In this document: positions 30,465-63,302 of the stretch, piece after piece
Layout: each line of letters opens with the position of its first letter
Numbering within the stretch: the first letter of the stretch is position 1
DNA from: Lachnospiraceae bacterium FE2018
GTDB lineage: Bacteria; Bacillota; Clostridia; Lachnospirales; Lachnospiraceae
Assembly (NCBI GenBank): GCA_000702845.1
Contig: JNKK01000005.1
Location: forward strand, 81,222 to 145,221
Length of the DNA stretch: 64,000 nucleotides
Direction: 5' to 3'
The notes under the pieces: model-generated
The model's input: only the letters and a program-made list of their open reading frames with translations
The model's database searches: none
Told to the model about the DNA's origin: nothing
Translations under genes and position numbers: made by a program

Positions 30465-31961
30465 TTATACAACTCTGCGCACGGCGAGAATCGTATGATA
30501 TGCGGCATTTGTTCCGCAGATTATTCCCCTGGTCGGATCAGATGCGTGTACGATCTGGCCTACGCCCATATAGATTGCAACATGGCCGCTGTAGCAGATG
30601 ATATCACCCGGCTGCGCTTCTGAATAGGAAACACCTCGTCCTGCGCTTCGCAGTGCACTGGACTGACGCGCCACGCTGTAACCAAAGTGTGCATATACCA
30701 GATGTACAAATCCGGAGCAGTCCGTTCCGTTCGTCAGACTGTTTCCGCCCCATACGTACGGATTGCCGACAAACTGAAGTGCATAGTCAACAATCGCCTG
30801 ACCTGCCGAAGATCCGGAAGAACTGCTGGCTGTTTCTTCTTCGTAGGACTCTTCCTCCTCGTAGGAATCGTAAGAATCGCTGTCTGAATCACTGCTGCTT
30901 TCGCTGTATGAACTGCTCTCCTCATCGCCGCTGTCTGAATAGCTGCTGCTTTCGCTGCTATCTTCGTCGTCGTAATAATCTGAACTGCTCTCGGAATCGC
31001 TTCCGGTGTAGCTGTCCTCTTCTTCATCGTAAGACTGCTGCTGTTCTTCCTCTGCCTGGCGTGCGGCTTCTTCCTCTGCAGCCTGACGTGCAGCCTCTTC
31101 TTCGGCTGCCTTGCGGGCTGCTTCCTCTTCTGCCGCCTTACGCGCAGCCTCTTCTTCGATGATGCGCTGTTCCTCTGCCTCTATGCGCTGCTGTTCCGCT
31201 GCCAGCTCCTGAATCTGCGCATTCTGCTGTGCAAGTATTTCCTGATAGGCTCCTGCCTTCTCATTGGCGCTGGCAAGCTGCGCATCATAATCTGCAGAAG
31301 TTTCCTTCGCCTCCTCCAGGAGACCTTCGAGGTTTTTCTTTTCGTCTTCCTGCTCGGACTGCATCTCCTCGAATTCGGCCTTTTGATTCTCCTGAGCCAC
31401 TTTCAGCTGTTTTACTTCCTCAACAACACCTTCATATTCATCCAGGCAGTCGCGGTCGTATGAATACATCTTCTGCGCAAATTCAGCCTGATTCAGAACC
31501 TTTGAAAGCGTGTCCTGCGAGAAAAGCATCATTCCCCATCCGCTGTTTCCGCCGGTCTCATAGATATACTGAATGCGCTTCTTCATTGCCTCATAAGCAG
31601 TATTTTCACGCTCTTCAGCATCTCCGAGGTCTAATATCGTCTGCTGTATTTCAAGCTCTTTATCACCGATTTGCTTCTCCAGTGTGTTAATAGACGCAAT
31701 CGCGGTCACCAGTTTTGCATCCAGTGAATCAATCTCTCCAACAATTTCCTTCTTTTTGTTTTCCAGCACGCCGATCGAATTCTGCAGACCCTCCAGCTTC
31801 GAAGCTGTATCTGACTGCTGTGCCTGCACTTCCTGCAGTTTGGAAGACGTCGCCGCCTTCTGTTCCTGCACCTCTTCCAGCGTGACGGCTCCGACAGATG
31901 CGATCTGGGCAAGTGTCAGTGTCATTGACAGTAACACTGTCATAAGTGCTCGTCTCTTCAC
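30465..31961 (-). CDS. Secreted NlpC/P60 peptidoglycan endopeptidase with coiled-coil N-terminus
   Basis: A 498-residue exported cell-wall hydrolase predicted to cut stem peptides. Residues 1-25 form a signal peptide (TVLLSMTLTLAQIASVGA). About 26-270 is a long coiled coil of the type seen in PcsB/CwlO-like hydrolases, usually controlled by FtsEX. About 270-305 is a repeated EEEAARKAA stretch, and about 305-380 is a Ser/Asp/Glu/Tyr-rich linker. The catalytic NlpC/P60 domain fills the rest: DCSGFV (Cys about 416), GHVAIY (His about 460) and VHASDP (His about 471). The start codon is GTG at 31961 with GGAGGG six bases upstream. Own promoter and terminator. Family very sure; regulation by FtsEX is inference. 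Confidence 0.92.
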   Translation of the reverse strand: MKRRALMTVLLSMTLTLAQIASVGAVTLEEVQEQKAATSSKLQEVQAQQSDTASKLEGLQNSIGVLENKKKEIVGEIDSLDAKLVTAIASINTLEKQIGDKELEIQQTILDLGDAEERENTAYEAMKKRIQYIYETGGNSGWGMMLFSQDTLSKVLNQAEFAQKMYSYDRDCLDEYEGVVEEVKQLKVAQENQKAEFEEMQSEQEDEKKNLEGLLEEAKETSADYDAQLASANEKAGAYQEILAQQNAQIQELAAEQQRIEAEEQRIIEEEAARKAAEEEAARKAAEEEAARQAAEEEAARQAEEEQQQSYDEEEDSYTGSDSESSSDYYDDEDSSESSSYSDSGDEESSSYSESSSDSDSDSYDSYEEEESYEEETASSSSGSSAGQAIVDYALQFVGNPYVWGGNSLTNGTDCSGFVHLVYAHFGYSVARQSSALRSAGRGVSYSEAQPGDIICYSGHVAIYMGVGQIVHASDPTRGIICGTNAAYHTILAVRRVV

Positions 31962-37495: not shown

Positions 37496-38536
37496 TTATT
37501 TACAATTCTGTTCATCCCGATACCGTTTACGGAGCTGTCCACAGGCGCCGTCTATATCAGCGCCCATTTCCCTTCTAATAGTAACATTAATTCCATATTT
37601 TTCAAGTTTTAATTGAAAATTGCGCACTTCCGGCGCTTTGCTCCGACGATATCCGCGCTCTCTGACAGGGTTGACGGGAATCAGATTTACATGACAATTC
37701 ATCCCTTTCAGAAGTCCGGCCAGTTTTGCCGCATGCTCCTGACTGTCATTTTTTCCTGCAATTAATGAATACTCAAATGATATCCGACGTCCCGTTACAG
37801 CAAAATATTCCCTGCATGCAGAGATCAGTTCATCAACAGAATACCTGTTTGCAACCGGCATCAGTTCCCGCCGCAGTTCATCGTCCGGCGCATGAAGCGA
37901 AATTGCCAGGGTAATCCCGTATTTTTCCTGCGCCAGTTTTCTGATCTGCGGTACCAGACCGCAGGTGGAAACCGTGATGTTCCTCTGACTGATCTGAATA
38001 CCTTCCGGACAGCTGACAAGGCGGAGCCAGCGGATCAGGGTATCGTAATTATCAAGCGGTTCCCCGCTTCCCATGACATCCACATGAGAAACCCGTTCTC
38101 CGGTCAGACGCTGGATTTCATAGATCTGTTCCAGCATTTCGGAAGCTGTCAGATTCCGGACACATCCATCCAGTGTAGAAGCACAGAACCGGCAGCCCAT
38201 GCGGCAACCGACCTGCGATGAAATACATACAGATATGCCATGACGATGGCGCATCCACACACTCTCGATCATATTTCCATCATATAGTTCAAACAGATAC
38301 TTCCTTGTATCCCCGCGCCCGGATTCCTGTACCTGAACTTTCCGTACTGTCAGAAGGGGATATTCCCCGGCCAGCGTATTCCGGAGTACACCCGGAAGAT
38401 TACTCATTTCATCATACGTCCGAACCCGCTTCTCATGCATCCAGCCAAACAGCTGTCTGGCGCGAAACGGCTTTTCGCCCATGGAAGTCATGAGTTCCGT
38501 CAGTTCTTCTATTGTCATAGATTTAATATCCGGCAT
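37496..38536 (-). CDS. rlmN: 23S rRNA (adenine-2-C2)/tRNA methyltransferase RlmN
   Basis: A 346-residue radical-SAM enzyme that makes 2-methyladenosine at A2503 of 23S rRNA and in some tRNAs. The iron-sulphur motif CRMGCRFC (C-x3-C-x2-C) is at about 105-112. The segment GSGEPLDNYD and the late methyl-carrying Cys region fit the family. The frame remains open about 60 codons upstream, but that stretch translates the 86-bp repeats. ATG 38536 (MPDIKSMTIEEL) follows AAAGGAA and gives the normal length. Between rlmN and its usual neighbour rsmB lies a 743-bp repeat array. Very confident in identity. Confidence 0.95.
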   Translation of the reverse strand: MPDIKSMTIEELTELMTSMGEKPFRARQLFGWMHEKRVRTYDEMSNLPGVLRNTLAGEYPLLTVRKVQVQESGRGDTRKYLFELYDGNMIESVWMRHRHGISVCISSQVGCRMGCRFCASTLDGCVRNLTASEMLEQIYEIQRLTGERVSHVDVMGSGEPLDNYDTLIRWLRLVSCPEGIQISQRNITVSTCGLVPQIRKLAQEKYGITLAISLHAPDDELRRELMPVANRYSVDELISACREYFAVTGRRISFEYSLIAGKNDSQEHAAKLAGLLKGMNCHVNLIPVNPVRERGYRRSKAPEVRNFQLKLEKYGINVTIRREMGADIDGACGQLRKRYRDEQNCK

Positions 38537-38587
38537 ACTCTGTTCCTTTGCATTTACGAATCGGGGTGGGGGTGCAGGGGCTACGCC

Positions 38588-39167
38588 TGCATCCGCATCT
38601 CTTGCTTTTCGACAGTTGCGGATGCACTTTTCATGCTTCGGACTGTTCGCTCTGTCCGGCTCTCGTCTATTTTTGCATCCGCATCTCTTGCTTCCTGGCA
38701 GTTGCGGATGCACTTTTCCTGCCTCTGAGCTTCTCTTTCAGCCTGGCGTCGGCCTGATTTCTCCAGCATTTGTCTGATTTTGCATCCGCATCTCAAGCTT
38801 CCCGGCCGTTGCGGATGCACTTTTCCTGCTTCAGATTGTTCGCACTGTCCAGCTCTTGTCGATTTGTGCATCCACATTTCTTGCTTTTCGACAGTTGCGG
38901 ATGCACTTTTCTCGCTTCAGATTGTTCGCTCTGTCTGGCTCTTGTCGATTTATGCATCCGCATTTCTTGCTTCCCGGCAGTTGCGGATGCACTTTTCTCG
39001 CTTCAGACTGTTCGCTCTGTCCGGCTCTTGTCGATTTTTGCATCCGCATCTCTTGCTTCCTGGCAGTTGCGGATGCACTTTTCTCGCCTCTGATCACTTG
39101 AGATTTCCAATAGTTGTCTGATTGGGCATCCGCATCTCTTGCTTTCTGGCTGTTGCGGATGCACTTT
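38588..39167. repeat. Array A: seven tandem 86-bp repeats, each with a 39-nt hairpin
   Basis: Seven copies of the hairpin TGCATCCGCA-N19-TGCGGATGCA start at 38588, 38674, 38781, 38867, 38953, 39039 and 39125. The spacing is 86, 107, 86, 86, 86 and 86 bases. Copy 4 has one changed base in the left arm (TGCATCCACA) and copy 7 begins GG instead of TG. The 47-nt between hairpins is also conserved (CTTTTC...TTCGCTCTGTCCGGCTC...GATTT) in copies 1 and 3-5, and divergent after copies 2 and 6. On the plus strand each hairpin is followed by CTTTT. It occupies most of the 743-bp gap 38537-39279 between rsmB and rlmN; the rest shows no gene. No known element is recognised. Confidence 0.9.
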
Positions 39168-39279
39168 TCCAAAACAGAAACTAAATAATCAGAAATCCAA
39201 TAATGCATAAATACATAAATAAATGAAGGAAGAAATAGCTATTTGTCTGACGAACCTATCTTCTCCGTCAACCACCGGT

Positions 39280-40647
39280 TTATCTTCGGAATCTTGCAAT
39301 GAAAAAACCGTCACAGGCATGTATACCGGGATAGAGCTGCAGATAGTTCCGGTTTCCGGCTTCTTCAGCCAGCTCCGGCGGAAGAAAGTTCTTCAGAGGA
39401 TCCGACTTCAGATCCGAATTCTTTAAGATCCATTCCACATTTTCTTCGTTCTCACGCGGATCAAACGTACATGTGCTGTACAGCAGTGTTCCTCCGGGTT
39501 TGACATACCTCACAGCATTCTTCAGAATCTGCCGCTGCAGCTGTACAAGGCTCTCTGTCTTCTCATCAGATGCTTCGTAACGGATATCCGGTTTCCTGCC
39601 GATCACGCCCAGACCGGAACAGGGAAGATCTGCTATCACAACTTCTGCTTTTCCTTCCATAGACGGATCGAGCACGGTGCCGTCATGAACCTGTACTTCT
39701 ATATTTTCAACCTGCAGCCGCTTTATATTATCTCTGATCAGACCTGCTTTCTGCTCTGAGACATCTCTTGCAATAATCCGCCCGTTTCCTTTCATGAGAT
39801 CCGACGCCAGCAGACTTTTTCCGCCGGGAGCCGCAGCCAGATCCAGAATCAGATTCCCCTGTTGTATTCCCGCTGCTTCCACAGCCAGCATGGAACTAAC
39901 ATCCTGAACTGTAATTCTTCCCTCGGCAAAAGCAGGCAGTTTTTCAAGGTCTGTAATACCTGACAGGTAACCTGCATACGAGATATACGGAGCCGGTGTG
40001 ACTGAAATACCTGCTTCCTGCAGTTCCTGTCTGCATTCTGCTTTCCGTTCCAGGAGTTCATCCCGGAAACGCACTGTCAGCGGGGCCTGTTTCTGGAAAG
40101 ACGTGCAGACCAACTCTGTTTTCTCCTTGCCAAGTGTTCTGCACCAGCGTTCTGTCAGATATACAGGCATTGAATACATGATACTGATAAATCTTATCGG
40201 ATCTGTCTCCCTGTCAGGCCAGCTGATACGGTCCTTTCCGCGTGCTGCAGAACGTAAAACACCGTTCACAAATCCACGCAGATTTCCAAATCCGCGGTGA
40301 GCAGCCATCCGTACAGCCTCGTTGACTGCCGCTGAATCCGGTACAGCATCCAGAAAATAAATCTGATAGACAGCAAGCCGGAGAATCTCTCGAATCACCG
40401 GCTTCATTTTCTTCGTCTTTGTTTTAGAAAACTGATCAATTATATAATCCAGCTTCAGCCGCCATTCTAAAACACCGCTGACCAGCTTCCTGTAAAAACG
40501 TTCCTCCCGCAGAACCAGTTCCGGATGCGCGCGAAGCATATCCCGCATAACCAGATGAGAAGGACGTTCCTCCTTTTCAATTGTCAGAAGCGTATCCAGC
40601 GCCAGATTTCTGGCGTCGTTTCGACTCTGTTTTTTCGTAGATGTCAT
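39280..40647 (-). CDS. rsmB: 16S rRNA (cytosine-C5) methyltransferase RsmB
   Basis: A 455-residue SAM-dependent methyltransferase that makes m5C967 (E. coli numbering) in 16S rRNA. An N-terminal NusB-like RNA-binding domain (about 10-140, including VPDSAAVNEAVRMA) precedes the catalytic domain. That domain has SAM-binding LDLAAAPGGKSLLA, DLPCSGLGVIGRKPDIR with the first catalytic Cys and YSTCTFDPRENEENV with the second. The frame is open a further 83 codons upstream, but that part translates the neighbouring repeat array. ATG 40647 gives a normal-length protein, although only a weak ribosome site (AAAGAAA) precedes it. The gene is bracketed by two arrays of the same repeat. Confidence 0.93.
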   Translation of the reverse strand: MTSTKKQSRNDARNLALDTLLTIEKEERPSHLVMRDMLRAHPELVLREERFYRKLVSGVLEWRLKLDYIIDQFSKTKTKKMKPVIREILRLAVYQIYFLDAVPDSAAVNEAVRMAAHRGFGNLRGFVNGVLRSAARGKDRISWPDRETDPIRFISIMYSMPVYLTERWCRTLGKEKTELVCTSFQKQAPLTVRFRDELLERKAECRQELQEAGISVTPAPYISYAGYLSGITDLEKLPAFAEGRITVQDVSSMLAVEAAGIQQGNLILDLAAAPGGKSLLASDLMKGNGRIIARDVSEQKAGLIRDNIKRLQVENIEVQVHDGTVLDPSMEGKAEVVIADLPCSGLGVIGRKPDIRYEASDEKTESLVQLQRQILKNAVRYVKPGGTLLYSTCTFDPRENEENVEWILKNSDLKSDPLKNFLPPELAEEAGNRNYLQLYPGIHACDGFFIARFRR

Positions 40648-40769
40648 ATCTGTTTCTTTTTCTTTGTGAAAGAGTAGTTTAATTGCGTTCGGGTGATTTT
40701 GTGTTTCTATATGTTTCCAGACTCTACCCCTTGCTTTTCTATCCTTGACCAGCGCTTTTTGACCATTTG

Positions 40770-41151
40770 TGCATCCGCATCCCGGGCAATCTCGCTTTTG
40801 CGGATGCACTTTCCTTGTTTGTTTCTTAATTGGCAAGGATTGTTTCTCCGTTTTTGTGCATCCGCATCCAGGGCAATCTCTCACTTGCGGATGCACTTTT
40901 CTTGATTTCTTCTCCTCGTCAAAGGATTGATTTCAGTTTTTTTGCATCCGCATCCAGGGCAAACGCCCGCTTGCGGATGCACTTTTTTTGATTTCTTCTC
41001 CTCGAGAAAGGTTGCTTCTCGATTTTTGTGCATCCGCATCCCGGCAAACACTCGCTTGCGGATGCACTTTTCTTGTTTGTCTCTTCCCGACAAAGGTTTC
41101 TTCTCAATTTTTCTGCATCCGCATCCCGGCAAACGCTCACTTGCGGATGCA
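40770..41151. repeat. Array B: five tandem repeats of about 86 bp with the same hairpin as array A
   Basis: Hairpins TGCATCCGCA-N18/19-TGCGGATGCA start at 40770, 40857, 40943, 41029 and 41114, with spacing of 87, 86, 86 and 85 bases. The stem is identical to array A, but loop (TCCCGGCAAACGCTCGC-like) and inter-hairpin sequence (CTTTTCTTG...TCTCCTC...GATTTTT) differ. The two arrays therefore expanded separately from a common hairpin. The last hairpin is followed by TATAAT instead of CTTTT. The array lies upstream of rsmB; 40648-40769 shows only a short leader. Confidence 0.9.
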
Positions 41152-41157
41152 TATAAT
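41152..41157 (+). promoter_or_regulatory. Perfect TATAAT -10 box abutting the last hairpin of array B
   Basis: TATAAT overlaps the end of the final TGCGGATGCA arm. No good -35 lies 16-19 bases upstream. If active it would start rightward transcription near 41164, just before the foldable region 41186-41416. Confidence 0.35.
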
Positions 41158-41185
41158 AAGAAATTGACTGCAAAAGGGGGCTTTA

Positions 41186-41416
41186 AGTGAGTACGCGCCT
41201 GGCAGATTGTTCAACGCCCGGGCAGCAGAATATCCGCTGAACGGCAAAGCATGTACCATCGCTGTGACTTGCATGGAAAATACCGTAGAAACGGATGCTT
41301 AGATGATGTTAGTGTGCCGGCGAAGAGTGTACCTCTATCACGAATCGGCGGCACACTTACAGAATCTTAGCATGTGGTTCGATGGTGTTTTCGCGGAGCA
41401 GGCGAGGTACATCTTT
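41186..41416 (+). ncRNA. Candidate structured non-coding RNA
   Basis: This 231-bp stretch has no convincing gene and lies in the 318-bp gap 41152-41469. Several helices can nest on the plus strand: GUAC 41191-41194 with 41407-41410, UCCGC 41233-41237 with GCGGA 41393-41397, GCCUGG 41197-41202 with CCGGGC 41218-41223, CCGU-AGAA-ACGG near 41283-41294, and a perfect 9-bp stem AGUGUGCCG 41311-41319 with CGGCACACU 41349-41357. A G-U pair in the GCCUGG stem favours the plus strand. Short open frames of about 40 codons exist on this strand but have no ribosome site. I do not recognise an RNA family. No terminator is visible to its right. Confidence 0.35.
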
Positions 41417-41469
41417 GACAGATAGCGTAAATATAGAAATTCACTTAAAAACCACTTAAAATCAGGTGC

Positions 41470-42186
41470 TCAGCTCCTTCTGCGTCCTCCGCTTCCGCTC
41501 GCAAGCAAAATCAGACGGAGCAGCTGCATCACTGTTGCTGCTGCTGCCGCTACATATGTCATGGCTGCCGCACGCAAGACCGCGCGTGACCCGGCAATTT
41601 CATTTGATGCCATCAGACCGGTGCCTTCCAGTTTTTTCAGTGCCCGCGAAGAAGCATTAAATTCTACCGGAAGTGTTACAATCTGAAACAACAGTGCCAG
41701 GCAGAATAATAGTATTCCCGCTGTGAGCAGCGGACGAATTGAAAAAATCAGACCGCCGATGAATACCGGAAATGCCGCCATAGACCCGAAATTTGCCACC
41801 GGCACCAGTGCAGACCGCAGACGAAGCGGCTGGTATTCTCTTGCATCCTGGATTGCATGTCCGCATTCATGTGCAGCAACGCCGATTGCAGCAAGCGAAC
41901 GCTGTCCATAGACCGTATCAGAAAGATTTACTACTTTGGTGCGCGGATCATAGTGGTCCGTCAGACTTCCGGAAATATGCTCCACCCTGACATTATAAAG
42001 ACCTTCACTTTCCAGAATCCGCTGTGCCGCCATAGCTCCTGTCAGACCGCAGGCACTGGCAATCCGGCTGTACTTATTGAACGTTGACTTCATCCTTCCC
42101 TGAACAATCAGAGTAAATACCAGTGCAATAATTACCAGAATATACGTCGGGTCGAGACCCATCATCATTCCATATCCTAATCCCAT
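41470..42186 (-). CDS. YugP-like membrane zinc metallopeptidase
   Basis: A 238-residue integral membrane protein of the neutral zinc metallopeptidase family. The zinc site AAHECGHAIQDA (HExxH) is at about 120, after one N-terminal membrane segment (YILVIIALVFTLIVQG). Three or four hydrophobic segments follow (FPVFIGGLIF, LTAGILLFCLALLFQIV, and a C-terminal one). The frame stays open to 42270, but those codons translate the 76-bp dispersed repeat. ATG 42186 has GGAGGG five bases upstream, and that ribosome site is formed at the repeat boundary. It sits between fmt and rsmB, its usual position in Firmicutes. Substrate unknown. Confidence 0.85.
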   Translation of the reverse strand: MGLGYGMMMGLDPTYILVIIALVFTLIVQGRMKSTFNKYSRIASACGLTGAMAAQRILESEGLYNVRVEHISGSLTDHYDPRTKVVNLSDTVYGQRSLAAIGVAAHECGHAIQDAREYQPLRLRSALVPVANFGSMAAFPVFIGGLIFSIRPLLTAGILLFCLALLFQIVTLPVEFNASSRALKKLEGTGLMASNEIAGSRAVLRAAAMTYVAAAAATVMQLLRLILLASGSGGRRRS

Positions 42187-42193
42187 TTCGCCC

Positions 42194-42269
42194 TCCATTT
42201 CCGTGCGCGGTGCGTGTGGCACTTGTGCCTCGCGGTGCGCGCGCGACTCCATTTCCGTGCGCGGCTGCA
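42194..42269. repeat. 76-bp dispersed GC-rich repeat, copy 1
   Basis: Identical to 55678-55753 at 75 of 76 positions. It contains the dyad GGCAC-TT-GTGCC and two CCATTTCCGTGCGCGG blocks. It fills the gap between the fmt stop codon (42279) and the yugP-like start (42186). Read on the minus strand, its end (GGAAATGGAG) provides the GGAG of the yugP-like ribosome site. Confidence 0.9.
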
Positions 42270-42278
42270 CAGATTATT

Positions 42279-43785: not shown

Positions 43786-43888
43786 AATTCGTAAAAAACG
43801 ATCTTATCGATCCATTCGCAAAAATGATCTCATCGATCCATTCACAAAAACAATCTTATCGATCCATTCGCAAAATATGATTTCATTC
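43786..43888. repeat. 26-bp tandem repeat between priA and def
   Basis: About three and a half units of a 26-bp motif with core ATCGATCCATTCGCAAAAA; full units are 43804-43829, 43830-43855 and 43856-43881. It fills nearly all of the 140-bp gap between priA and def. Each unit contains ATCGAT. Confidence 0.8.
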
Positions 43889-61844: not shown

Positions 61845-63302
61845 TTAATCCTCTTCTTCCTCAAGCGTCTCCTCTTCTTCCTCAAATGTCTCCTCTTCTT
61901 CCTCAAGTGTCTTCTCTTCTTTTTCAGGGCGCTCCAGAAGCTGGATTTTCAGCGCGCTGCTGTCGGACTGACTGAAGATAACGCTTACGACATCATCAAC
62001 CTCCGGGGAGAAACCGCCTTCGATTGATGTAGCAGACGTCAGTGCAAGCTTCTTTGTTTCACCATCAGCAAATCGAATGGTGCATGTGCTTCCACCGTTC
62101 CATGCAGTGATTGTTCCGGTTTTCTCGATTGTCAGCTCTTCCTGCGGCTGTTCTTCCGGTTCTTCCTCCGGCTCTTCTTCCGGCTGCGGTTCCTCTGTGA
62201 CAACCGGCTCTTCGGGGACAACCGGCTCCACAGGGACAACCGGCTCCTCAGGGACAACCGGCTCATTGGAGACAACCGGCTCCTCTGGTGTCTCATTTTC
62301 CGGAACATCAATGATATCCTGATCATTCTCCGGTTCCCGCGCTGGTTCACTTACTACTGTTACAATCTGCATCTGCTCCTTCTGAGCAGGTTCTGCATGT
62401 TTCTTTGCATCTGCTTTCTGTTTTTTGATTTTTTTCTTCGCATCTGCTTTCTTTTCCTTGGTCTTTTTCTTCTGTGCTGTTTTTACTTTCTTTGCGGTAT
62501 CCTTCTGGGACTTTTTCTGCGTTTCTTTTTCTGTGCAGTATACAGAGATCGCCAGAGGTTTCTGATCCAGCCTGTTTACGTATATGACATCTGCCTTGTT
62601 CCCAGGTGCAAGACGATCACCGGATACAATCGTGTTATTGTCCATATCAAAATAGTACGCTGCATCTCCAGCGCTGACCAGAAGGAATGTGCCGTCAGAT
62701 TTCTCGATCTTGCCTGTCAGCATATATCTCTCATGATCCGCCTTTCTTACCACTTCGATTCCGGATGCACCAGATGCGCCGCCAAGCTCACCTTCGTATG
62801 TGATTATAATATCATCACCGATTTCCGGTGTTCCGTTGATTACTCCCGTGCTGCTGTTCTTCGGGAAGGTGACGCTTAGGGTCTTGCTTGTAACCGTTAT
62901 GGAATCTTTCTGAACATCTGTGACAATTCCCTCGAAGTAGTTGATTTTCTTCTTCTGATCGATGAAACGTACATCTGTCGCTTTGATCTGTGTCTTTTTG
63001 TTCTGTGCCGCTGTGCTTTTTGTCACTTTATTCTGCGCTGCTTTTTCCTGCATCGCTTTGTTCTGTGTTGTTTTGATCTGTGTCGCTTTGTTCTGTGTGC
63101 CTGTCAGTTCCTTGCAATATACATTCTCTTCTTTTACGGCAGCTGTTTCTTCTGTGGCAGATGAAGTGCCTGCATCTGTGGCTTCCTGTACAGCGTAAAC
63201 GGTTTGTGCAACAGTATCCTGTTTTGCCGGTGTGACACCGCATGCTGCCATTGAAGCTGATAGTGTCAGTGCAATCGTCATAATCATTATTTTTCGATTC
63301 AT
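61845..63302 (-). CDS. Predicted lipoprotein with low-complexity repeats
   Basis: A 485-residue exported protein. The signal peptide (MIMTIALTLSASMAAC) ends in a lipobox-like MAAC with Cys at 21. Following are a Gln/Asn/Lys/Thr stretch of TQNKATQIK-type repeats (about 68-108), a small beta domain (about 115-255, INYFEGIVTDVQKDSITVTS, then AAYYFDMDNNTIVSGDR), a Lys-rich stretch (about 260-300), EEPVVP repeats (about 335-365) and a second small beta domain (about 395-455, TGTITAWNGGSTCTIRFADG). The C-terminus is TLEEEEE repeated three times. The two beta domains resemble OB-like DUF5666-type folds. No clear function. It lies between the CobD-like gene and the rRNA operon end. Confidence 0.75.
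   Translation of the reverse strand: MNRKIMIMTIALTLSASMAACGVTPAKQDTVAQTVYAVQEATDAGTSSATEETAAVKEENVYCKELTGTQNKATQIKTTQNKAMQEKAAQNKVTKSTAAQNKKTQIKATDVRFIDQKKKINYFEGIVTDVQKDSITVTSKTLSVTFPKNSSTGVINGTPEIGDDIIITYEGELGGASGASGIEVVRKADHERYMLTGKIEKSDGTFLLVSAGDAAYYFDMDNNTIVSGDRLAPGNKADVIYVNRLDQKPLAISVYCTEKETQKKSQKDTAKKVKTAQKKKTKEKKADAKKKIKKQKADAKKHAEPAQKEQMQIVTVVSEPAREPENDQDIIDVPENETPEEPVVSNEPVVPEEPVVPVEPVVPEEPVVTEEPQPEEEPEEEPEEQPQEELTIEKTGTITAWNGGSTCTIRFADGETKKLALTSATSIEGGFSPEVDDVVSVIFSQSDSSALKIQLLERPEKEEKTLEEEEETFEEEEETLEEEED

Follow-up and report, generated by a model that had tools for sequence, protein, structure and literature searches.

Two hairpin arrays around rsmB

In Lachnospiraceae bacterium FE2018, the gene rsmB is bracketed by two rows of a short hairpin, and the locus raises the question of what such rows are and on which molecule they act. 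The window, i.e., the whole stretch of 64,000 nucleotides under analysis, contains the following features.

37496..38542, minus strand: rlmN, downstream of array 1
38588..39163, minus strand (sense is the gene strand): array 1, seven hairpins in the rsmB-rlmN gap
38588..38626: hairpin 1.1 (10-19-10)
38674..38712: hairpin 1.2
38713..38780: the only long spacer in array 1, 68 bp (47 + 21)
38781..38819: hairpin 1.3
38867..38905: hairpin 1.4, left arm with one change
38953..38991: hairpin 1.5
39039..39077: hairpin 1.6
39125..39163: hairpin 1.7, adjoining the rsmB stop, with a single change at the first arm position
39280..40647, minus strand: rsmB, 16S rRNA (cytosine967-C5)-methyltransferase
40655..40769, minus strand: conserved trailing flank of array 2 (sense 3' side)
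40770..41151, sense on the minus strand: array 2, five hairpins in the gap from the zinc metallopeptidase gene to rsmB
40770..40808: hairpin 2.1
40857..40895: hairpin 2.2
40943..40981: hairpin 2.3
41029..41066: hairpin 2.4, loop of 18 nt
41114..41151: hairpin 2.5, loop of 18 nt
41152..41214, minus strand: leading flank of array 2
41470..42270, minus strand: neutral zinc metallopeptidase (Zn_peptidase_2), upstream of array 2

The identities of RsmB and RlmN are confirmed by NCBIfam. All twelve hairpins described in the earlier note, in clusters of seven and five, are present at 38588-39163 and 40770-41151; the arms are perfect in ten of them, with a single change in those starting at 38867 and 39125. 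The start-to-start steps are 86 bp, except for 107 bp (38674 to 38781), 87 bp and 85 bp, the last occurring where the loop has 18 rather than 19 nt. Across the window, 43 arms with at most one mismatch are found, against a shuffle mean of 7.3 and a largest shuffle value of 14.

Copy number and spacing in the FE2018 genome

The earlier note had allowed for a merely local satellite, in the first place a repeat occurring only here; a genome search finds the hairpin well beyond the rsmB locus, so this first part does not hold. FE2018 contains 150 hairpins at 46 places, mostly in rows. Since 25 of these places lie within 260 bp of contig ends, they correspond to roughly 34 loci, and double counting is possible for some units at contig ends (L083/L094, L079/L080, L084/L090). 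The hairpins measure 39 bp (range 37-39), with a loop of 19 nt in 125, 18 nt in 24 and 17 nt in one.

Of 104 pairs of neighbouring hairpins, 97 have a spacer of exactly 47 bp. The long exceptions exceed this length by 10, 11, 21 and 83 bp, corresponding to 0.95, 1.05, 2.0 and 7.9 helical turns of 10.5 bp, a post hoc comparison of four spacers, two of them from one array. About 740 substitutions are counted by parsimony over 96 unique 47-bp spacers, and balanced indels have passed through such spacers without a change of length: among 3791 spacer pairs less than 60% identical when ungapped, balanced gaps raise 43 to 70% identity or more, versus three when the interiors are shuffled, the balanced indels stemming from few lineages.

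The surroundings of the rows are also partly shared. Five arrays, designated type II, have common ends, with flanks recurring at several loci; in the same flank comparison the other arrays have no such shared ends. The trailing flank of array 2 is 83-85% identical over about 115 bp to L065, L077 and L085, and 90% over 61 bp to L072. Its leading flank has the initial 35 bp in common with L077, and 41174-41214 is an inverted match to the L065/L072 leader. Lone hairpins away from contig ends (L062, L072, L089) indicate that a row is not obligatory. Higher-order repeats, visible by eye in L061 and L097, point to tandem duplication.

Conservation of arms, loops and spacers

Between arrays, identity amounts to 95.5% in the arms, 45% in the loops and 40% in the mid-spacers (83 units, 33 arrays); the proposal that the stem is the fixed part therefore extends to the whole genome. 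The companion proposal, that loop and spacer letters are specific to each array, is borne out within the window and fails genome-wide, where a few subfamilies, recognised by eye, recur across many arrays and are mixed within single ones such as L077. Spacers are 68% identical within arrays versus 49% between them. This relatedness leads to rejection of a CRISPR, with which the arrays share a regular repeat-spacer period and from which they also differ in having two arms instead of one repeated block and in occupying about 46 places. Degenerate ends resembling a CRISPR trailer are likewise rejected, because arm changes at array ends do not differ significantly from those inside (p 0.19 and 0.43). 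A coding repeat is discarded since a unit of 86 bp is not divisible by three and frames are open on both strands.

Exact arms number 218 in 379 kb, of which 206 lie within hairpins; of the remaining 12, five belong to hairpins truncated by a contig end. So few stand alone that a single motif of the DNA-uptake type is rejected. The flanks of the arms are conserved and asymmetrical, with TTTTG on one side and CTTTT on the other, read on the same strand.

Two-sided pair changes do not clearly exceed the shuffles (values as high in 137 of 500 for pairs and 24 of 500 for cells), and in 50 of 147 rows the outermost bases of the stem do not pair. Consequently, the letters appear to be kept more than the pairing. 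The percentage of paired cells in the stem and the covariation score are matched by only 10 and 8 of 500 shuffles, respectively. High values of this kind can arise among related sequences without structure. With two of five measures beating nearly all shuffles and the pair and type counts not doing so, covariation is not accepted as proof of an RNA structure.

Orientation and gene context

A gene on the same strand precedes the array at 33 of 34 places. Where both neighbours are available, 16 of 21 places are co-directional and none is divergent; in the co-directional gaps all 16 arrays lie on the gene strand (p = 3e-5). For L084 the orientation is that of the covariance-model strand, and the simple gene caller missed nearer same-strand genes at L075, at L097:13059 and, as judged by eye, at L078, with strand and counts unchanged. 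Each array keeps to one strand: opposite-strand model matches fall on hairpins already matched, with the exception of L100, where, of the two hairpins, one has its better score on the strand opposite to its neighbour.

Arrays often lie inside operons, and their flanking genes include the likely partners hydG-hydF, hisB-hisIE, ribBA-ribE and zinc peptidase-rsmB-rlmN. A sense terminator-like site precedes the array in at most five of 33 leaders, so many arrays are probably transcribed. These observations, together with the sense orientation behind genes, suit hairpins that act in RNA, within 3'-UTRs or operons, by stabilising or processing the upstream message or by binding an RNA-binding protein. 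Such a role is also in line with the high stem pairing percentage and covariation score, with folding energies of -17.5 to -22.8 kcal/mol for three sampled hairpins on either strand, and with the conservation of gene gaps across species described below, as expected of a role in particular transcripts. It is nevertheless rather unlikely, because a linker in RNA has no need of a 47-bp or 53-bp length kept exact through balanced indels, and the arm letters are fixed beyond what pairing alone would demand.

Inside the arrays, the stem is followed by A-rich sequence on the sense strand and by a T-run on the antisense strand. The missing sense-strand U-run there does not fit an intrinsic terminator of the upstream gene. 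On the antisense strand, CTTTT follows the stem in 77 of the 94 units that have a next unit, as would be expected if each unit were an intrinsic terminator against antisense or convergent transcription heading toward the upstream gene. At the gene-proximal end, however, where such a guard would be most needed, CTTTT follows the arm in just eight of 28 cases; the 19-nt loop is long, and terminators require neither invariant stem letters nor a 47-bp ruler. This function is considered most improbable.

Other genomes and a 53-bp sister family

The exact pattern of the 86-bp family occurs in one of 397 sampled Lachnospiraceae genomes, FE2018 itself, and in none of the viral contigs. The species collection yields eight matching stretches from seven organisms. 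Two of them are contig ends of a single MAG, where the hairpin seemingly lies inside a longer palindrome; a genome-wide model search of this MAG gave nothing among the 150 of 1698 candidates scored. One congener has a single similar hairpin (L017, E 6.6e-7). At the rsmB loci of other genera and families (n = 25), two tandem repeats of 35-150 bp are present, neither alike by eye. Among the genomes searched, the hairpin family is abundant in one species.

Two congeners carry a different hairpin, AGGCGGA..CGCCAGC, at an exact 53-bp period: 30 distinct pairs of neighbours are set at exactly 53 bp and one at 106. At all seven places with an upstream gene it lies on that gene's sense side, and the sense strand of the rows is purine-rich in the 86-bp and 53-bp families alike. 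Of the six gene gaps found to hold it in a genome-wide search, five hold 86-bp arrays in FE2018. In the sister species several repeat families pile up within the same gaps, some of which are short in other congeners. The 53-bp counterpart, the near-exact 47-bp spacer and the orientation fixed to the upstream gene all go beyond the earlier note.

The suggestion that a REP-type Y1 transposase mobilises the hairpin is not sustained. FE2018 has five Y1 places, three of them fragments at contig ends, and no recognisable REP transposase (RAYT) is found among them; by inspection they look IS200/IS605-like, for which reason a RAYT-driven REP is disfavoured, and one adjoins a gene resembling tnpB. Given the fragments at contig ends, a RAYT might yet lie in an assembly gap. 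Among the hairpins listed, the nearest is about 3.5 kb from one of the Y1 places (C50).

A selfish or neutral satellite would be a non-autonomous mobile repeat, spread by a putative enzyme and tandem duplication and tolerated behind genes in the non-terminating orientation only. It would account for the common flanks of type II copies at several loci, for the several families within the same gaps of the sister species and the shortness of some gaps in other congeners, and for the higher-order repeats of L061 and L097. The mobilising enzyme, however, is not found; a base-pair-exact spacer is unexpected in two families with different arms; and the shared gene gaps require either hot spots or descent with replacement of the letters. 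We regard this origin as unlikely.

Comparison with known repeats

Judged by its sequence, the family resembles REP/BIME elements but has neither their tag and alternating orientation nor a recognisable REP transposase. REP/PU elements and BIMEs are described, in parts of the sources cited, as short high-copy extragenic palindromes behind genes, between unidirectional or convergent ORFs, and often in regularly spaced groups (PMC3733652; PMC2817692); the main text of PMC3733652 has no mention of Firmicutes or Clostridi. The FE2018 hairpins (37-39 bp, 150 copies) fit the criterion of a 20-40 bp high-copy palindrome, and they are extragenic, behind genes (33/34) and never divergent (0/21 two-sided places). 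They differ in having CTTTT and TTTTG flanks instead of an unpaired GTAG/CGTC tag, a 19-nt loop, a near-exact 47-bp spacer and strict polarity to the upstream gene. As in BIMEs the spacing is regular, whereas each array has a single orientation without alternation, L100 excepted. A BIME is further defined by binding of gyrase or IHF.

BOX of Streptococcus pneumoniae (boxA-boxB(n)-boxC) is, in the part of the source considered, an intergenic Firmicutes repeat with variable tandem middle units and conserved ends (PMC3049150). The five type II arrays likewise share ends. In FE2018, by contrast, the arm letters are fixed while the unit interior drifts, and the two-sided places are mostly co-directional (16/21), whereas BOX is over-represented between convergent genes. 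MIRU of Mycobacterium tuberculosis comprises units of 46-101 bp, repeated in tandem within operon gaps and in fixed orientation to the genes; it inserts at overlapping stop/start codons and holds a small reading frame. Tandem units in operon gaps and the fixed orientation are common to both, but MIRU is not known to have hairpin arms at a fixed ruler.

The earlier statement that no known repeat class is recognisable agrees with the Rfam 15 scan of window positions 38000-42000, which gives no match up to E 1, and with the absence of GTAG/CGTC tags from the conserved flanks. A literature search outside full texts returned no published description of the FE2018 hairpin repeat.

Phased protein-binding sites as the preferred reading

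Spacing this rigid points to the rows as likely protein-binding sites. The explanation preferred here, tentatively, is that the FE2018 arrays form a REP/BIME-like intergenic family whose arms, nearly always at exact 47-bp spacing, may be phased binding sites on double-stranded DNA. A putative protein, of nucleoid type or gyrase-like, would recognise the arms as double-stranded DNA, which would place both their letters and their helical register under selection. Rows would grow and shrink through tandem duplication, and between species the arms would change together with the putative protein. The fixed orientation may reflect the fact that the opposite one would put a terminator-like hairpin-plus-TTTT in the path of the operon transcript; alternatively, the putative protein might act relative to the direction of transcription.

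Several points weigh against a reading in DNA. An orientation fixed to transcription is more natural for a role at the RNA level, and frequent re-amplification preserves the unit length of a tandem array with no need for selection. Lone hairpins, the asymmetrical arm flanks and the L100 strand anomaly also fit poorly, while the helical-turn argument comprises four spacers and the balanced indels come from few lineages.

Meaning for the family

REPs and other small palindromic repeats are commonly attributed to a dedicated transposase and to loosely defined RNA or DNA roles. Here, two families with different arms, in congeners, follow the same rules of fixed arms, an exact ruler and a purine-rich sense strand, and both sit behind the preceding gene, largely at the same genes. 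With 25 of 46 places near contig ends, such arrays appear to fragment short-read assemblies and would be easily missed. On a broader and quite doubtful view, the genus could carry a bacterial analogue of rapidly evolving satellite DNA. The rows would then be putative binding sites at conserved gene ends, in phase with the helix and polarised with respect to transcription; from one close species to another their arm letters and their period (86 bp in one species and 53 bp in two others) would be exchanged with the sites retained, in co-evolution with a candidate, rapidly changing chromosome-organising protein. Arm letters, spacing, site and strand are kept, and loop and spacer letters drift; this division makes the question of whether such repeats act in DNA or in RNA cleanly testable.

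Arrays in the Window and across the Genome

All 12 hairpins that the earlier note had described in two clusters were found in the window, in the following arrays:

38588..39163, minus strand: array 1, seven hairpins
40770..41151, minus strand: array 2, five hairpins

The gene order on the minus strand is priA, def, fmt, zinc metallopeptidase, array 2, rsmB, array 1, rlmN, PP2C phosphatase and PASTA kinase. Among RsmB proteins with a named source, the closest come from MAGs labelled Eubacterium sp. and Lachnospiraceae bacterium, which makes Lachnospiraceae the likely family. A pattern search of the source genome (3.21 Mb, 119 contigs) gave 68 places with exact 10-bp arms and 120 with 9-bp arms, and zero matches to the reversed arm pattern. 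The covariance model, built from 23 hairpins, returned at least 147 matches at E values up to 0.001; 150 candidates were scored, and more matches may exist. Counting every hairpin with at most three arm changes, 150 hairpins occur at 46 places (41 fetched stretches and the window). Since a contig end lies within 260 bp at 25 of the 46 places, the true number of loci is estimated to be nearer 34 (the other 21 places plus half of these 25). For the same reason a few units were possibly counted twice.

Spacer Ruler and Arm Letters

Of 104 adjacent hairpin pairs, 97 have a spacer of exactly 47 bp; the other seven spacers measure 46 (two), 48, 57, 58, 68 and 130 bp. These seven length departures compare with about 740 substitutions across 96 unique 47-bp spacers (UPGMA/Fitch count). 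Balanced gaps, with the total remaining at 47, rescue 43 of 3791 dissimilar spacer pairs against 3 in interior-shuffled controls, the rescues involving 36 spacers and few lineages. The larger departures (+10, +11, +21 and +83 bp) fall near whole turns at 10.5 bp, a pattern that is suggestive only, comprising four cases, two of them in one array; the +83-bp spacer resembles two elements fused together.

The loop measures 19 nt in 125 of the 150 hairpins, 18 in 24 and 17 in one. When 83 units from 33 arrays are stacked without alignment, identity between arrays is 95.5% for the arms, 45% for the loop and 40% for the mid-spacer. The outer arm position varies (T, G, C or A) while its partner is A in 97%, and this pair is unformed in 50 of 147 distinct rows. 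The percentage paired and the covariation score exceed most shuffles (10 and 8 of 500 as high, respectively), values that related sequences can show without structure; both-sided changes do not exceed them (137 of 500 as high for pairs, 97 for pair types). In the alignment used, some hairpins are also read a second time from the other strand. Because both-sided changes do not exceed shuffles and the outer pair is often unformed, the arm letters are conserved as such.

Genomic Place and Direction

With genes called by a simple ORF caller, the array stands behind a gene's 3′ end at 33 of the 34 places with a neighbor on that side, gene and array sharing the purine-rich strand; the sole exception (L086) is 5′ to a gene that points away from the array. 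The 21 two-sided places comprise 16 co-directional, five convergent (uninformative on strand) and no divergent gaps, and all 16 co-directional ones agree with the same-strand rule (p = 3e-5). The upstream gene has Pfam or NCBIfam support, directly or via a sister orthologue, in 15 of these 16; that at L072 is an 80-aa frame with no match. A Pfam match was obtained for 45 of 50 scanned neighbor proteins, sister genes included. Neighbors on the other side are co-directional in 23 of 33, and several arrays are likely flanked by operon partners (hydG-like/hydF, hisB/hisIE, ribBA/lumazine synthase). Arrays begin a median of about 82 bp behind the stop codon, whether or not the caller's wrong frames at L075 and L097:13059 are replaced by the nearer same-strand genes, which end 9 and 300 bp, respectively, ahead of the arrays.

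This fixed polarity points to the involvement of transcription. Viewed from the antisense strand, internal units have the look of a stem with TTTT behind it, a terminator-like signal. Of 94 units preceding another unit, 77 have CTTTT after the arm, but at the gene-proximal end 8 of 28 units do. A terminator-like site occurs in at most 5 of 33 array leaders.

Relatives and Sister Family

The exact pattern is present in one of 397 sampled family genomes, namely the source genome, and in zero viral contigs; within the genus, G001 has one similar hairpin and three further genomes have none. Some array gaps of the source genome are longer than their counterparts in relatives (approximate lengths, taken from alignment ends): rsmB–rlmN, 737 bp vs about 124 (G002), 45 (G001) and 10 (G003, G004); zinc peptidase–rsmB, 822 bp vs about 244 (G002) and 50 (G001); ribBA–ribE, 630 bp vs 47 (G003) and 91 (G004). 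Against this trend, hydG–hydF measures 338 bp vs 150 (G002) and 829 (G001), and the latter gap contains a 53-bp tandem array.

This sister family obeys the same rules. G001 accounts for 10 matches to its unit pattern and G002 for 5; the other 39 genomes searched, the source genome included, have none. All 15 matches are 34 nt long, though 32 to 40 were permitted, and an additional unit in G002 (L146) has 33 nt; 30 distinct adjacent pairs are spaced at exactly 53 bp and one at 106. Identity over all pairs of 36 units, within-array pairs included, is 90% in the arms, 55% in the interior and 44% in the linker, and sense-strand purine reaches 69% vs 66% in the 86-bp family. The unit lies on the upstream gene's strand at all seven places having such a gene. 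The 15 matches occupy six gene gaps:

G001: hydG–hydF; aminotransferase; hydroxyethylthiazole kinase to penicillin-binding protein (two contig ends)
G001 and G002: TPR protein gene
G002: TatD; 4-alpha-glucanotransferase

The genes named first in each gap are those upstream of the units. Five of the six are also gaps of 86-bp arrays (L064, L074, L077, L097:13059, L093/L101), with protein identities of 75–97%; the sixth has no match among the array flanks fetched. With about 34 loci among perhaps 3,000 genes (an estimate), chance is not likely to explain the shared gaps; one set of arrays may descend from the other, or these sites may attract repeats.

A third, long hairpin with the core TTTTCTACGCNGCTCAG has 27 copies in G002, 9 in G001 and 3 in G000 (at most one mismatch). 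In G002 it occupies the gaps at rsmB–rlmN, hydG–hydF and the L081 gene; of three G002 elements found without reference to the 86-bp arrays, one is at an array site. The dispersed element (in G002, stretches L112, L146, L156, L162, L165 and L187) has a conserved core, TTTTCTACGCNGCTCAG...GCTTTAGAAAA, with an outer stem that differs among the sites read, and in five G002 copies the core begins 29–48 bp behind the stop codon.

Subfamilies and Flanks

By eye, loop and spacer subfamilies recur across arrays and occur mixed within single ones (e.g., L077), and three-unit higher-order repeats are seen in L061 and L097. Five same-subfamily arrays (window array 2, L065, L072, L077, L085) have in common a trailing flank of 61 to about 129 bp at 78–90%; L065, L072 and L085 share a 52-bp leader, and L077 and the window a 35-bp one. 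A CTTTAAGTGAGTWCGCGC-like segment lies beside arrays in both orientations (window 41174–41214, leaders of L065 and L072) and in the G002 hairpin element L153, pointing to older repeats nested within these gaps.

Other short tandem repeats were noted. T-rich repeats of about 15–17 bp like CATTTGGTTTCTGAT lie, by eye, between stop codon and first hairpin in L097 (first array), L099, L074 and L067, and one around CAAGCATACAAACCCAGGGAACAAAG stands immediately behind the L076 array, from about position 130. The window also holds a 26-bp repeat of 3.2 copies in the priA–def gap (43794–43875) and several of 15–54 bp (30877–31158, 61849–63098); many of the latter have periods divisible by three and so perhaps lie in coding sequence.

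Known Systems and Interpretation

The closest known kind are REPs and BIMEs, described in PMC3733652 and PMC2817692 as short many-copy palindromes behind genes, sometimes regularly spaced. Unlike these, the present arrays tested negative for a REP tag and for alternating orientation; their variable middle is BOX-like (PMC3049150). A survey of stem-loop families (PMC2267715) lists small ones from Clostridium and further Firmicutes, and a REP-finding tool (PMC12306157) lists Bacillota genomes; the sections considered of both sources make no mention of phased arrays. Separately, L141–L145 carry, by our own reading, IS200/IS605-type Y1 transposase genes, three cut at contig ends and one beside a tnpB-like gene; a RAYT gene may lie in one of the assembly gaps.

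The RNA, selfish-satellite and terminator readings, taken jointly, hold the larger share of the probability. As the single reading we commit to phased protein-binding sites, on the strength of sequence patterns: fixed arm letters, together with spacing held to the base pair, suggest that recognition takes place on the double helix. The arms would be recognized there by a protein, with the arrays as phased candidate binding sites, and polarity may be set by this protein or by the purging of terminator-like insertions in operons.
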